Part shown: positions 41,149-48,428 of the stretch, in pieces | How the letters are laid out: every line of letters begins with the position of its first letter | Numbering within the stretch: position 1 is the first letter of the stretch | Assembly: GCA_004362315.1 (NCBI GenBank) | Contig: SNWL01000003.1 | Coordinates: forward strand, 682,001 to 746,000 | Reading direction: 5' to 3' | Origin: Mycobacterium sp. BK086 | GTDB taxonomy: Bacteria; Actinomycetota; Actinomycetes; Mycobacteriales; Mycobacteriaceae | Length of the DNA stretch: 64,000 bases | Notes under the pieces: model-generated | The model's database searches: none | What the model was told of the DNA's origin: nothing | Seen by the model: the letters and a program-made list of their open reading frames with translations, nothing else | Made by a program: the position numbers and the translations under genes

Positions 41149-41247
41149 GACAACCGGCTGGCAAACATTGCCGCCAGGGTGCGGAAATCGCGTGCTCAGC
41201 GCCATAATTCCGTAAAATCTGTCCCATCCACGGGAGGGACGGGGCGG
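41149..41247 (+). promoter_or_regulatory. Promoter region of the phosphotransferase-cyclase pair
   Basis: This 99-base gap has TAAAAT (41213-41218) as a plausible -10 and GGGAGGG (41232-41238) as a ribosome binding site about nine bases before the ATG. No clear -35 or inverted repeat was found. Confidence 0.45.
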
Positions 41248-42315
41248 ATGGCGTGGTTTCCTGTCGACCCGCAGTCGGTGACCGCGGGCTGGCTTAGCAA
41301 AATCCTGGATGCAGACGTTCGACACTGCCGGCTCGAGCAGATCGGGATCGGTGTCGGACTGCTCGGGAGACTCTTTCGCGCCCATCTCGAAGGTCCGGAT
41401 GTTCCGGCTTCGGTCGTGGTCAAGCTCCCGACCCTCGATGAGCGCGCCCGGTCAGAAGTCTGCGAACCGTTGGAGTTCTACCTGCGCGAGGTGCGTTTCT
41501 ATCGCGACGTCGGGCTGGACAATCCGCTGCCGCCCGCGCGGCCCTACTTCGTGGGGTTCGACGAACTCACCCACGACTTCGTCCTGGTGTTGGAGGACCT
41601 GGGCCGGCTCCGGGTGGCCGATCAGACCGTCGGATGCACTGCCGAGGACGCTGAGATCGTGGTCGACGCGATCGCGCGCCACCACGCGCACTGGTGGGAC
41701 GATGAGCGCCGCTCGACGCTGCCTTGGCTGAGCTCGTACACCGCACCACCGTTCCCCGCTGTCCTGGCGGAGAACTTCGAGGTCGCCTGGCCCCGCTTCC
41801 TGGAAAGAGTCGGATCGAGCCTGTCGCCCGACATGCACTCGTTCGGCGAACGATTCCCGTCGCTCGTGCCGTGGTACCTCGACCAGATCATGCGGCCACC
41901 CCACACCTTCCTGCATGGCGATCTTCGGCTCGACCAGTTGTTCTTCGCTGTCGAACCTGACGATCCGCCGGTGACCGCGCTGGATTGGCAGGTCACCTGC
42001 ATGGGCCGCGGCGCCTACGACGTGGGTTACTTCCTGAGTCAGAGCCTAAACATCCACACCAGGCGCAGCTGCGAGGCCGACCTGATCCAGCGGTACGCCC
42101 AGCGGCTCGCCGAACACGGAATCAACTATCCCGCAGACGAATTGACGCGGGATTATCGCCTGACGACCGCCTGGTGCTTCGCCTATCCGGTGATCGGCAC
42201 GGGTCAGGCCGACACCATTACCAACGAACGCCACCTGGCGTTGCTTCGGACGATGGCGATCAATGCTGCGAGTGCGATCGAAGACCATGATGCCCTGTCG
42301 CTGAGGCCGGACTAA
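41248..42315 (+). CDS. APH-like phosphotransferase family protein
   Basis: The 355-residue protein has a kinase-like (aminoglycoside/EcKinase) fold. IGIGVGLLGRLFRAHL near residue 32 forms the nucleotide loop and SVVVKLPT supplies the Lys. The catalytic loop LHGDLRLDQLFF near 222-232 has the conserved His and Asp, and the metal Asp is in ALDWQVTCMGRGAYDVGYFL near 250. The usual Asn of the catalytic loop is Gln. Members phosphorylate small molecules; the substrate is unknown. Its TAA overlaps the next gene's ATG as TAATG, so the two products are made together. The ATG at 41248 has a good ribosome site. Confidence 0.82.
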   Translation: MAWFPVDPQSVTAGWLSKILDADVRHCRLEQIGIGVGLLGRLFRAHLEGPDVPASVVVKLPTLDERARSEVCEPLEFYLREVRFYRDVGLDNPLPPARPYFVGFDELTHDFVLVLEDLGRLRVADQTVGCTAEDAEIVVDAIARHHAHWWDDERRSTLPWLSSYTAPPFPAVLAENFEVAWPRFLERVGSSLSPDMHSFGERFPSLVPWYLDQIMRPPHTFLHGDLRLDQLFFAVEPDDPPVTALDWQVTCMGRGAYDVGYFLSQSLNIHTRRSCEADLIQRYAQRLAEHGINYPADELTRDYRLTTAWCFAYPVIGTGQADTITNERHLALLRTMAINAASAIEDHDALSLRPD

Positions 42316-45300
42316 TGGCCGCGTGCGGCTCGTGCGGAAGCGCCAACGAAGCCGATGCCCGATTCTGCGAGAGCTGTGGGAACCCTCTGCAGCGCTCCTG
42401 TGGCGCGTGCGGAGTCGTGGCCAGCGCGACCGCGCGATTCTGTCGGTCCTGCGGTGCATCGCTGAATGACCAAGGCGCCCAAGAGGTTGCGAGCCCGACG
42501 CGCAAAACCGTGACGGTCATGTTCGCCGACTTGGCCGGCTCGACGGCATTCGAAGAACTCGTCGACCCCGAGACAGCCCGTGAAGTCATCGGTCAGTATC
42601 ACGAGCTGCTGCGCTCGACCGCCCAGCGCCATCGCGCCGGAGTGACCAAGTACATCGGCGACGGGTTCATGGCGGTCTGGGGCGTGCCCGAGATCGGAGC
42701 GGGCGATGCCGGGCACGCCGTCGATGCCGCGGTCGAGCTACAGGAGCGATTCGTCGGGCTGGCCGGCCGCCTGTCGGATGCCCACGGGGTGGACCTGGCG
42801 CTGCGTGTCGCCGTGAACACGGGCGAAGTCGTGGTCGGCACCGAGGACGCCGACCTGGTCGGTGACGCGTTGAATGTCGCGGCCAGGCTGGAATCGGAAT
42901 GTCCGCACGGCCACGTCGTCGTCGGCGAGGAGACCTGGCGCGCGACGCGCGGGCAGCACCGCTACGACCCGCTGGGCGCCGTGCAGGTGAAGGGCCGCAG
43001 CGCCGCGGTCCCCGTCTACCAATGGGTCGGGCGGGCCGACGCCGCGGAATCCGTCCCCTTCGTCGGTCGATCCCCCGAATTGGGGCGCCTCCAAGCGGTT
43101 TTCGACGCGGTCGCCACCGCTCGTACGGCTCGTCTGGTCACCGTCATCGGCGATCCGGGTGTCGGCAAAACCCGGCTTGCGGCGGAATTCATCGGAGCAC
43201 TCGGCGACGGAGTGCAGGTGATCCGGGCGCACTGCGCGGTCGAGGGCAGCCCGGCCCTCGCTCCCCTTGTCGACGTATTGCGAACCCGCGATCTCGACGA
43301 CGACATCTCGGCCACGATCGCCGAGCGAGACCGAATTCTGCGCGATCTCACCGGTATGACGGCCGGTGTCGCGGGCTCCGTCGAAGAGGCATTCTGGGCG
43401 CTTCGCCGCTACGTCGAAATCCTTGCCACCCACCGTCCGCTCGTCCTCCTCGTCGACGACATCCAGTGGGCCGACACCCTGCTGCTCGATTTTGTCGAGC
43501 ACCTCGTCGAGTGGGTGCGGGACGCACCTGTCCTGCTGATCGCACTGGCACGCCCCGAATTGCGGGAGACGAGGCCCGATCTGGTCACTGTGAGCGGCTG
43601 GGTCGCCGAGGCACTGCGGCTGCGCGGCCTCGACGCCGACGCCACCGCAGAGCTCGCGGCCCGTGTGCTCGGCAGCGATCAACTGCCTGAGGAACTCCTG
43701 GCCCGTCTGCCATCGTCGACGGGCGGCAATCCGCTGTTCGTCCGGGAGCTGGTCGGGATGCTCGTACACGACGGCGTTCTGATCGCGAAACCCGGCGGTT
43801 GGAGCCTGACCGTAGACGTCGACGCCGTCTCCGTCCCGCCGACCATCCACGCCCTGCTCGCGTCCCGGCTCGAGCGTCTCGGTTCCACCAACCGGCGGGT
43901 ACTCGAAGTCGCGTCGGTGATCGGAACCGATTTCTCGCCCAGCGCAGTGGCGGCACTGGCAGGCGTCGGCGTAGCCGAGATCATGTCGGGCCTGAATCGG
44001 TTGCGCCGCCTCGACCTTGCCCAGCCGAGCGGCGCGTACGCCGGTGACGAGCCAGTCTGGCGGTTTCATCATGTCCTCATCCGTGACGTCGCCTACCGAA
44101 GGCTGCTGAAGGCCGAACGCGCCGAGCTCCACGAGCGCTTGGCGAATTGGGTGCACGCCGGCGGACCCAGTGCGGCGTTCGAATCAGACGAGGTGATTGC
44201 GCGCAATCTCGAAGCGGCCCATGGCTACCGGTGCGAGCTCGGTCTGCGCGACGGTCACACCAGCGAGCTCGCCCTGCGCTCTGCGCGCAACTATCTAGCA
44301 TCGGCCAGGCGTGCACTCGACCGTGACGAGCTGGGTTCGGCGGGCAGCCAGGCGGCGCGGGGCGCATCGCTGGCGACCGCCGACGCGGCGCTGCATGCCG
44401 AGCTGCTGATGACCGGCTGTGAGGCGTTGCTGTCCGCCGGCGACGTGGCTGCCGGCGCGCCACTGGTCGACGATCTGGAAAGCGTTGCGGGCCTGGACTT
44501 GACGCCATGGGCGACCTGCTATCGGTGCCAGCTCCTGGTGTACACCGATCCCACCCGGCTGCTCGAGGTCGATCAACGGCTGCAAGCAGCGATCGACGAG
44601 TTCGAGGGCCGCAACGATGCCGTCGGTCTCGCGAAAGCGCACCGGGTGCGGGCGAGCGCGCGGGCGCGGCTCGGCCGGATCGGGGACTGTGAATCCGACC
44701 TGTTCGAGGCACTGATCGCCGCACGTCGAGGTGGGGACCACCGGCAGATCACCGCCGCATTGGGTGCCGCACCCAACGCCGCGCTATGGGGACCGAGTCC
44801 GGCGCCGAAGGCAGGAGGCCGGTGTCTGGATGTGGTTCGGATGCAACGCATGACCACCGCGACGCCGTCATTGGAGGCGACGTCGCTGCGTTGTCTGGCG
44901 GTACTCGAATTGCTCCGCGGCCGTCCCGACAAGGCACGCACGATGCTGGCCGACGCCCGCCAGATCGTCGCCGACCTGGGTCTGCGGCACGGCCTCATGG
45001 AAACAGAGTTGTTCGCCGGAATCATCGAGCTGATGGCAGGCGATGCGGTGGCCGCCGAACCGCATTTCCAGGTCGCGCTCGAAGGACTCGACGCCCTCGG
45101 GGTCGGTGCCGACGCCGGCCAGGCGGCAGCACTGCTTGCCAGATCGGTTCTGGCGCAAGGCCGTGTTGACGAGGCCGATAGATATGCCGGGGAAAGCGAA
45201 CGCATCGCCGGCCACAATCTGAAGACGGCCATCGCCTGGCGTTCGGTGCGGGCCGAAATCCTCTCGGCGTCAGGCGAAGACGACCAAGCCGTCGCGATGG

Positions 45301-48300
45301 CTAGAGGTGCGGTCACAGTGGCCGAAGGAACCGATCTAGTGCTCGACCATGCCGATGCCTGTCTGGCGCTGAGTCGAGTCCTGACGGCTGCGGGTGACGA
45401 ACGCGGCGCGGCCGACGCCCGGCGTGACGCCGAAGTGCTCTACGCTGTGAAGGACGCGGTGTTCATGGTCGCCCGAACCGCGGATCCAGCGGCGAGCGGT
45501 GCCTCAATCGGATCCGGAGCCCAAACGCCCCCGAGACCGGTAACCGCCAATCGGGCAAGCAGAATCGTCGACCTCGCCCGCCAGGCCATGACGGCCGGCG
45601 ACCCAGATGCGGTGGTCGCGTTTTACTCCGACCAGATGGTGTACGACGATCGCCGACGACTCAGCGGCGATCCGATCAACAGCGTCGAGGAATTGCGCAC
45701 CGCCGCGCAACGCATGATCAATCACTACCACCACGTCGAATCGCGAACTGTGGGGGTCCGCGGCGACTCGCTGGTGCTCTACCTCGATACCTGGTCCGAT
45801 GACTTCGGCAACCGGACAACGACTTTCAACCTCTTCGAGGTGAGAAGCGACGACCTTGTCAGCTACCATGGCAGATTCGACGAGAACGACGGTGATGAAG
45901 CCGAGCACGAGCTCGACAAGCGTTACGCCGCCGGCGAAGGCCTCGAGAAACCGGCCCCCAGCCGGCTGGTGCTCGCCAACCGAGCTAGCGCAGTCGGCGA
46001 TCGCATGATCGCAGCCATGCAGGCCCACGATGTCGACGGCACCATTGCGACCTGGTCCGACCAGTTCGTCTACAACGACCAGCGGCGACTTGGCGGGAGC
46101 CCATTGGAAGACGTTGCCGCTCTGCGAGCCGCTATCGAGCGAATATGCGTGCAGTACAGCCACTTCGAAGCTCACAATCTGGCCTTCCGTGGCGACAATG
46201 TCTACATGGGCTGGACCTGCTGGTCTGACGACGCCGGCAACGAGTCGAGATACATCGGCGTCTACGAAGTCAATGCCGACGGATTGGTGTGTTACCACAG
46301 CCGATTCGACGAGGACGAGTTCTGGCCGGCGTACCGGGACATGGAAACCCGTTACTACATGGGCGAAGGTGCTCAGTTCGCCATCAATGGCCTCCCCGCG
46401 GCGGAGTGGGTGATCGGCATCAGCCAGGGTGACATCGATGCCGTCCGACGCGTGTCGGACCCCGAATTCCGTTGGCATGCCCCACCTTCAGCGCTTAAAG
46501 AGAAAGTGCGTTCGGTCGATGACATGTTTCGCTGGACGCGGGCCAGGGGAAGCCAAGTCTCGTCTCAACGCCACTGGGTGCCCGCCCTGGTGTGGCTGTC
46601 CCCCACCTGCAACGTCGGGCTGGGCGAGATTGAAGGTGTCGGTCCAGACGGCGAAGAGTATCGATGGAACTTACTGTTCGTCTGCGAGTGTCGCGACGGG
46701 TTACTGGTATCGACGACAGAGTTCGACACCACCGACGAGGACGCGGCATTTGCCTATGCCGCGTCGCTGGTCGCCGCGCGCCCAAGCCGTTTCGCGGTCA
46801 CCAACCGTGCTTCCCAGATCAGTGACCGCCTGGCCACGGCACTGGAATCCGGAGACATCGTCGCCGCCGGTGCGCTGTTCTCCGCCAAGGTCGAATACGA
46901 CGACCGACGCGGCTTGTTCGGCGAGCTTTCCCGAATCGTCGGTTCGACGAGCATACGAAAAACGATCGAAGGCCTCCGCGGCCAGTTCACCCGATTCGAC
47001 CTGCGCACGTTGGCCGTTCGAGGAGGTCAACTGAGTCTCGCCCAATTTCGTTGGTTCGACGACGCCGGAAACCAGTCGACCGGCCTGGCAGTCGGCGAGA
47101 TCGATGACAACGATCTCGTCTGCTATCAGGGCTACTTCGACGAGGACGACTTCGACGGCGCCTACTCCGAACTCGAGCGTCGCTACTTCGCGAGCCTTGG
47201 CCCATCCCGGGCCGCGCTGCGCGAACCACTGACGGAGCTCGTCCTCGCAGAGAACCGCGGCGACCTGGACAGCACGTTCCGGATCTTCGCGCCAGGTCTG
47301 CAGATCGAGAGCCGGTCCCGTTCGGTATTCCCACGACGCACCGTCGCGGAATTGCGCCAGAGCGTCGAATCGCTCAGCGCGATGGTGGAGTCCTACCGGG
47401 TGTGGGGCTCGGCGATGTGCTGGGTATCCGACGACGTGTTCGTGTCGCGTCACGAGCGGGAAGCCATCGGGCTCGATGGCCAGCCATTTACCTGGTCTCG
47501 GCTCTACGCGGCACGGATGCAAAACGGACTCTTCACCGCGCTGTGCGAATTCGACGTCACGGACGAGGACGCGGCGTTCGCCTACGCCGAGGAACTCGCG
47601 CGCACTGGTTCGAGCGGGCTGGCGCTCGCCAACCGTGCCACCGAAGCCGCGGTAAGTGTGGCGCAGGCGGCGGAGGCCCGCGAATTCGACGCGCTGAGCG
47701 CGCTCTACTCTGACGAGTTCCACTACGACGACCGTCGCCAACTCAGCGGTGATCCGATCGTCGGATCCAGCGGTCTGCGAGCTGCGTTCGAACGACTGCG
47801 GGCGCAGTACACCCGATTCTCGTTGCGCATCTTGGCCGTCCGCGGTGACAACGTGCACCTTGGGCAGACCACGTGGTCGGACGAGGACGGAAACGAGGCG
47901 ATCAACCTGGCGGTGGGTGAGGTCGATGACGATGGTCGGGCGAAATATCACGCCGTCTTTGAGGAGGACGATTTCGCGGGTGCCTATCGCGAGCTCGAAC
48001 GCCGTTACTACGCAGGCGAAGGAGCGGCCGCAGCCCATTCGGGACTGACCAACGCCGACTATGTCGCCGCCCTGAACCGGGCCGATTTCGACACGATCTT
48101 CACCGAATTGAGCTGGCCCGACCTGCAAATCGAGAACCGTTCACGCTCAGGCTTTCCCGATCGTTCAGCCGCCGAACTCCGCGCCAGCCTCATCGAACTG
48201 CAGAAGATGGTCCCCTCCCTGCGATCGTGGTTCTCATCCATCCGCTGGTTGGCGCCGGACCTCTTCGTCGGACGCATGGACCGCGAAGGTCTTGGACACG

Positions 48301-48428
48301 ACGGCGAGCATTTCACCTGGGCACGGATTCTCGTCGGCGTTTACCGTGAGGGACGCCTGGCGCGGCTATGCGATTTCGACGCCGACGACGAGGACGCGGC
48401 GTTCGCCTACGCACACGAGTTGCTCTAG
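42315..48428 (+). CDS. Giant zinc-ribbon/adenylate cyclase/AAA ATPase protein with seven NTF2-like modules
   Basis: This is a 2037-residue protein. Residues 1-50 hold two zinc ribbons (Cys4/7/18/21 and Cys29/32/43/46). Residues 62-235 form a class III cyclase with metal Asp72 and Asp116, Lys112 and Asp180 (adenine selection), and Asn187 and Arg191. Residues 247-560 are an AAA/STAND-type ATPase with Walker [10 protein letters not shown] (279-287) and Walker B LVLLVDD (about 376-383). A helical TPR-like region runs to about 1060. From about 1076 there are seven modules: A (1076-1217), A (1218-1358), B (1359-1493), A (1494-1638), B (1639-1769), A (1770-1910) and B (1911-2037). A units share NRAS, YDDRR, WSDDxGN and FDEDD; B units end [10 protein letters not shown]. 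The modules look NTF2/SnoaL-like. It is coupled to the upstream kinase gene (TAATG). Likely a cAMP-making signalling ATPase; the role is unknown. Confidence 0.85.
45541..48425 (+). repeat. Degenerate protein-coding tandem repeats (A-A-B-A-B-A-B)
   Basis: Seven modules of about 380-435 bases each encode two alternating domain types. Boundaries are near 45541, 45967, 46390, 46795, 47229, 47622 and 48045. Identity is at protein motif level and not obvious in the DNA, so the duplications are old. The A-B pair looks like the unit of duplication, with the first A lacking its B partner. Confidence 0.75.

Follow-up and report, generated by a model that had tools for sequence, protein, structure and literature searches.

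The 64,000-nucleotide stretch of Mycobacterium sp. BK086 DNA analysed here (contig SNWL01000003.1, positions 682,001 to 746,000; hereafter the window) contains, at 42315-48428 on the forward strand, an ATG-started gene whose 2037-residue product, P0001, is a short member of a giant mycobacterial protein family. In this family the tail, an array of NTF2-like modules of two types (A and B), is turned over while the signalling head in front of it stays nearly unchanged, and the protein looks like a changeable multi-input sensor. From its N terminus, P0001 is composed of a zinc ribbon, a class III cyclase, an AAA_16 ATPase, a TPR-like region and seven modules in the order A-A-B-A-B-A-B. All parts belong to known families; their combination, which we read as a STAND-like cyclase receptor carrying exchangeable NTF2 modules, appears to be undescribed. 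The initial annotation of this DNA had proposed such a layout and knew of no characterised protein having it. In agreement with this, no description of the arrangement was found in the open-licence literature, the only one searched, which tests absence from print weakly; the layout itself is, however, common in the host genus, where the C-terminal half of P0001 matches 166 of 396 genomes (E <= 1e-10).

Two alternating types of NTF2-like modules

The open reading frame and the order of the seven modules were confirmed by profile bounds, the array beginning at about 45534 and not, as first placed, at 45541. On the forward strand, it consists of A1 (45534..45956; family profile E-value 1.7e-45), A2 (45963..46385; 6.3e-51, also the best SnoaL_2 stretch), B1 (46365..46790; 1.7e-43), A3 (46788..47216; 2.9e-43), B2 (47199..47618; 5.5e-47), A4 (47616..48038) and B3 (48018..48425), the family profiles having been trained with the window modules included. 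In the protein, the A modules are bounded by residues 1074-1213, 1217-1357, 1492-1633 and 1769-1906, and the B modules by 1351-1492, 1629-1767 and 1902-2037, so that the seventh module reaches the final residue of P0001. Modules of one type are 35-49% identical over 129-140 aligned residues, which bears out the two related types recognised at first. The motifs assigned to B (G[PLH]DG and DEDAAFAYA) are present in all three B units and W[SF]D[DE]xGN in all four A units, but ANRA, DDRR and F[DE]E[DN]D are each found in three of the four A units: A3 has TNRAS, and A2 has NDQRR and FDEDE.

The Pfam family SnoaL_2 scored 106 bits on the whole of P0001 (cut-off 27), with five significant stretches. 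On single modules (E <= 0.01), it matched all 18 A modules and 11 of 17 B modules; B3, taken by itself, gave no match. A profile made solely from the window's four A units detected the A units of P0002, a paralogous array protein of the same genome, down to 2.3e-19. The module array is thus not a chance resemblance. The sequence relation between A and B is remote (hhalign probability 19%, E 0.0013), and the structure model of the A4-B3 pair (pLDDT 86, pTM 0.84) predicts for both halves the NTF2/SnoaL fold that had been proposed. The best structural matches, mostly enzymes, include Rv0760c with a steroid, ketosteroid isomerase (KSI), NsrQ, SnoaL2 and MonBI; the NTF2 fold has already served for designed steroid, cortisol and vitamin D binders.

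An Asp aligning with an Asp of MonBI is kept by 99% of the A modules behind zinc-ribbon (ZnR) heads and by 87% of those behind BTAD heads, the two head types of the family. We take this residue to be the catalytic, Asp38-like Asp of KSI and MonBI. With the nearest solved relatives being mostly enzymes, it would suit a multi-enzyme in which the modules are SnoaL/KSI-type cyclases, isomerases or hydrolases working on diverse substrates and the head only senses the flux. However, B aligns best with KSI entries, presumably D38N mutants, which bear Asn where A has the Asp38-like residue. The other KSI catalytic residues (Tyr14 and Asp99) are not conserved in A, according to a mapping that is not relied on here; for the KSI Tyr/Asp/Asp set, the tool alignment reached the Asp38-like position only. 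Moreover, we know of no precedent for up to 27 enzymes fused to a signalling ATPase, and such a multi-enzyme is judged improbable.

A conserved head and a changing array

Arrays were read in 53 of the 166 matching genomes, the other 113 resting on the search match alone, and in two genomes from the pair-model search (G702 and G710). Forty fetched loci, one paralogue, 19 pair-model loci and the window, with L040 replacing its duplicate L041, gave a final set of 61 arrays from 55 genomes, with 445 A and 407 B modules (852 in all), an array being present at each of the loci fetched. ZnR heads precede 29 arrays, which have 6 to 22 modules except for a cut-off one in which 4 are visible; the other 32, of 6 to 27 modules, follow a BTAD head or a TPR region of the BTAD type. 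The survey of module number across mycobacterial homologues suggested by the initial annotation gave a range of 6 to 27, in counts which depend on profiles trained on the same arrays. Two proteins are the longest: that of L069 has 4927 residues and 27 modules; that of L071 in full has 4943 residues and 27 modules as A(AB)13, and enters all counts with 19 modules because the stretch first read was cut. Contig ends truncate two arrays (L059 and L105). Three others (L058, L068 and L112) have their head in a different upstream frame, as in broken genes or after sequencing errors, and these frames were left unmended in the counts. The pattern A?(AB)n fits 55 of the 61 arrays, the six others being irregular by the profiles: (AB)n is the form of 26/29 ZnR and 3/32 BTAD arrays, and A(AB)n that of 2 ZnR and 24 BTAD arrays. 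The genome of the window carries one array per head type, P0001 and the 2751-residue P0002 (L009:2449-10701, reverse strand), which is built as BTAD-cyclase-AAA-TPR-A(AB)5.

The different fates of head and array are illustrated by the window and L040 from Mycolicibacterium vinylchloridicum. Identity is 93% in the cyclase, 87% in the AAA part, 89% in the TPR part and 80% in the zinc ribbon; in the modules it is 68 (A1), 77 (A2), 79 (B1), 55 (A3), 83 (B2), 45 (A4) and 76% (B3). Since the window A4 resembles the final A module of L044 (64-65%) more closely than A4 of L040 (45%), the A4 copy has probably been replaced in one of these two arrays. The initial annotation had explained the double A at the array start by the loss of one B, and the relatives speak against it. 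The ZnR arrays L042-L044 start with A-B, their first A and B matching the window A2 (60-67%) and B1 (68-74%), and the window A1 has no counterpart in them (at most 47%); A1 therefore looks like a gain that the window shares with L040. One leading A is also found, independently, in 24 of the 32 BTAD-type arrays.

The turnover was followed in 11 non-independent pairs, drawn from 57 complete-head arrays, with cyclase-to-TPR identity of at least 94%. In these close-head pairs, 90 of 197 modules had no counterpart at >=65% identity (72 of 175 when the pair with the contig-end-cut L059 is left out) and only one of the 11 pairs had equal module numbers; the 10 that differed include the pair with the cut-off L059. 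For seven of the 197 modules, synonymous divergence was well under that of the head (p < 1e-3; for instance 0.06 vs 0.27, p 2e-7), as would be expected of recent exchange. Best matches between arrays never led from A to B nor across head types (852/852), the top cross-head identity being 44% for A and 34% for B; judged by these matches, the modules form two closed pools, one per head type. For 401 of 608 middle modules the best match lay at another position, counted from either end. By comparison of 27 ZnR and 13 BTAD arrays, the AAA-TPR parts are all more than 71% identical within their subfamily.

Within its own array a module finds its best match at 51-55% identity (class medians) vs 66-71% in another array, and 4-7% of the modules are nearer to their own array than to any other; with so few, concerted evolution via tandem duplication was rejected as the main process. 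Single-linkage clustering at 70% distributed the 852 modules into 554 clusters, in which 15 modules were surplus copies of a cluster already represented in their own array; the cluster count climbed nearly linearly with the number of arrays, with no plateau. The picture is weaker at 60% (203 clusters, 414 surplus within-array copies), the count still climbing. Diversifying selection had initially been expected, and positive selection or hypermutation of the modules is opposed by the substitution counts: the ratio of nonsynonymous to synonymous differences (pN/pS) of orthologous modules is 0.26 for A (166 pairs) and 0.25 for B (156 pairs), in non-independent pairs of 75-97% identity. These values point to purifying selection on the modules that are kept and to a turnover of constrained modules rather than hypermutation, which argues that each module does something.

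These data also bear on a reading of the array as a scaffold for structure or oligomerisation, A-B pairs stacking as a rod whose number and sequence drift and of which only the fold matters. NTF2-like domains often dimerise; the strict alternation (55/61), the confident placement of A against B (pTM 0.84) and the lack of positive selection would suit a regular rod. Neutral growth by tandem duplication should, however, give many near-identical neighbours, and because modules of one array are very unlike each other (the 51-55% medians and 15 surplus copies among 852 at 70%), the scaffold is disfavoured; the retention of the KSI/MonBI-aligned Asp in A also stands against it. We regard it as unlikely. 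Even if the array were only structural, proteins of up to 4943 residues, matched in roughly 40% of the genus genomes sampled and accompanied in one subfamily by a conserved kinase-like partner, would be undescribed in the literature searched.

In a class-wide sample, the pair model matched 15 of 394 genomes (14 from the genus of the window, and G782 with weak matches), and the TPR-like region alone (E <= 1e-20) matched the same 15. In a phylum-wide sample, the TPR-like region (E <= 1e-15) matched 31 of 326 genomes, 28 of them outside the genus, and the matches were read for 14 outside-genus loci from nine genomes. Twelve of the 14 encode a cyclase-AAA-TPR protein with zero modules and L133 an AAA-TPR protein with neither module nor detected cyclase, so that the helical region also exists without arrays in other classes. 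L127:3911-9181 encodes five A/B-like modules (A-A-B-A-A) and, in G782, L101:5807-11560 encodes six (B-B-B-B-A-A) with weak scores, both with no clear alternation; G632 gave a marginal family match (7.3e-7). As a simple history, we infer that a cyclase-AAA-TPR protein, in some cases bearing NTF2 units, came first and that the alternation of A and B was expanded into arrays in mycobacteria. The module-free actinobacterial cyclases (L128-L140) agree with P0001 in the order of cyclase, AAA_16 and helical region (12/14 loci) and differ from it by stopping after the helical region (13/14 loci, L133 included); we take them to be Rv0386-like class III cyclases linked to AAA/STAND ATPases. A mobile origin of the array was rejected, as searches gave no match among plasmids and no relative among viral contigs. 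An assembly artefact is unlikely, the modules being too dissimilar to collapse and several arrays coming from one-contig genomes (G011, G039, G102, G316 and G341).

The signalling head and a proposed mechanism

The head of P0001, encoded on the forward strand like the array, starts with a double zinc ribbon (residues 1-50, 42315..42464; Pfam DZR 3.9e-9, CxxC motifs in the translation). It is followed by the class III nucleotide cyclase domain (58-240, 42486..43034; Guanylate_cyc 73.5 bits, cut-off 21.9) and the AAA_16/STAND-like ATPase region (247-640, 43053..44234; AAA_16 83.6 bits, cut-off 32.6; P-loop GDPGVGKT), in line with the fusion first described, and by the TPR-like helical region (641-1060, 44235..45494; TPR_12 6.1e-6, under its Pfam cut-off). 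All canonical residues of a class III cyclase (D, K, D, D, N, R) are present, i.e. the two metal-binding Asp, the Lys/Asp substrate pair and the Asn/Arg transition-state pair. Among 28 aligned ZnR-type cyclases (27 mycobacterial ones and L101), five of these sites are kept in 28/28 and the substrate Asp in 27/28, the exception being, judged by sequence, L101. The P-loop G-x4-GK[ST] was found in 28/29 AAA1 and 30/31 AAA2 segments; a home-made Walker B pattern had no match in 13/29 and 3/31, respectively. In P0002, the head carries a BTAD domain (126.5 bits, cut-off 22.1) with Trans_reg_C at 24.8 bits, just below its cut-off of 26.2. As related TPR-like regions and arrays are joined either to a competent-looking cyclase or to a BTAD head, the array and TPR part would behave as an input module connectable to either of two outputs, suggesting a shared input chassis. 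A hydropathy scan of P0001 revealed nothing resembling a transmembrane segment; in P0002, 19 residues within the ATPase region form a single hydrophobic stretch with a mean hydropathy of 2.39.

From the observed head domains, predicted fold, alternation, module turnover and ecdysteroid-kinase-like (EcKL) partner gene, we infer ligand binding, relay and output as follows, with a probability of roughly 45%: the protein would be a cytosolic STAND-like receptor whose array is the multiplexed, exchangeable ligand-sensing part driving a cyclase or, in the BTAD relatives, a DNA-binding output. Each A-B pair would form a pseudo-heterodimer enclosing a hydrophobic pocket or two, and the small molecules recognised, of steroid, polyketide or other xenobiotic type, would differ from pair to pair. 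Binding would be relayed via the TPR-like region to the ATPase, whose assembly state would switch and bring the cyclase domains together for cAMP production, the BTAD-headed relatives acting through their SARP-like DNA-binding head. EcKL would phosphorylate a related class of compounds, and a lineage gaining, losing or importing modules would change its set of compounds, the output being left untouched. This receptor reading is favoured because of the module fold and its resemblance to ligand-binding NTF2 proteins, the six cyclase residues kept in the ZnR type and the P-loop of nearly all AAA segments. It is further favoured by the different evolution of head and array with a module variety that shows no plateau, by EcKL lying upstream of 29/29 ZnR arrays with no match at BTAD loci, and by the absence of a transmembrane-like stretch in P0001.

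Several results weigh against the receptor. Seven modules carry the sign of recent exchange and the other 190 of the 197 do not, and no alignment column of the module pairs has pN above the mean pS, i.e. there is no sign of a point-mutation arms race. In the BTAD-type cyclase, K and D are spaced differently (KTRGEGD), and its activity may be altered or lost. On the supporting side, a SnoaL_2 domain is described as contacting and affecting the ECF41, sigma-J and ECF56 sigma factors (PMC7730460); this precedent is one of contact and not of ligand sensing, the term 'ligand' being absent from that text. A further claim, possible yet distinctly more doubtful than the sensor itself, is that of a multi-specific receptor with a heritable, exchangeable repertoire, in which up to 27 NTF2-fold binding domains per chain, drawn by recombination from two closed pools, would lead many ligands to one output; it would recall the combinatorial receptor repertoires of other organisms, but inside a single protein. 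If the array does sense ligands, it would be a natural multiplexed receptor whose set of specificities evolves by module exchange, giving a direct way of asking which compounds are sensed by environmental mycobacteria, together with a ready library of NTF2 domains, hundreds of them distinct.

The same architecture could belong to a biological-conflict receptor, Pycsar- or NLR-like, in which the array senses proteins or metabolites of phages or competitors and the cyclase makes an alarm nucleotide. The STAND-like core with its cyclase, the match of the PADLOC PycC models to the window cyclase domain (1.4e-12), the fast turnover of the sensing part and the STAND antigen-sensor precedents (PMC10907252, PMC7159879) would agree with it. 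Several findings do not. PycC also resembles ordinary class III cyclases, and neither EcKL nor P0002 had a PADLOC match. Plasmids and viral contigs gave no match, no positive selection was detected, and the differing genomic sites of the ZnR loci lie on the ribF/truB side or the msrB side (gene names by reading). A conflict role thus seems rather improbable. Membership of Pycsar itself was rejected in spite of the PycC match, the adjoining same-strand gene, the only neighbour scanned, being EcKL. The cyclase-ATPase stretch also resembles TOMM_kin_cyc (TIGR03903), which matches only residues 63-638, with 167 bits, far under the cut-off of 705.75, and membership was rejected.

Compared with known systems, members of the NTF2/SnoaL/KSI superfamily such as Rv0760c, KSI, NsrQ and SnoaL2 are mostly free-standing, whereas the array proteins have many units of two alternating types per chain. 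Lsd19 (3rga) and MonBI-MonBII (9kw6) likewise contain more than one NTF2-like unit in one chain, but they are polyether-synthesis enzymes with two units, and the fit of the whole Lsd19 chain to the A-B model (rmsd 12.3) indicates a different arrangement. In ECF41/ECF56 and sigma-J (PMC7730460), SnoaL_2 also contacts and affects a signalling output, as a single domain and with a sigma factor as output. STAND antigen sensors diversified by diversity-generating retroelements share with the array family a STAND core and a changeable sensing tail; the retroelements diversify CLec domains by targeted hypermutation (PMC10907252), whereas the arrays change by gain, loss and exchange of modules under purifying selection.

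The EcKL partner and neighbouring genes

The EcKL gene (PF02958; 50.3 bits, cut-off 22) lies at 41179..42315 on the forward strand, and its stop codon TAA shares one base with the ATG of the array gene (TAATG). An EcKL homologue is found upstream of all 29 ZnR arrays (28 loci and the window), in most cases only a few bases away; at L058 and L068, the other-frame head region lies between EcKL and the array open reading frame. EcKL was absent (E <= 1e-5) from the examined stretches of the 32 BTAD loci. Two further EcKL matches of the own genome each have a SnoaL_2 match no more than about 1 kb away, these free-standing SnoaL_2 matches adjoining EcKL at G000:C2:110145-111406 and G000:C1:1691245-1692523. 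This is a weak hint that EcKL and SnoaL_2 proteins act on similar compounds. Comparison of 13 BTAD loci revealed no partner common to all. Seven BTAD-type arrays (L070, L073-L075 and L078-L080) occupy a common site, flanked by a divergent gene family upstream and by another family downstream. Within the window gene (42315-48425), the GC content of the array (63.1%) is lower than that of the head (68.3%); it is 63.9% in EcKL and 67.1% in the window.

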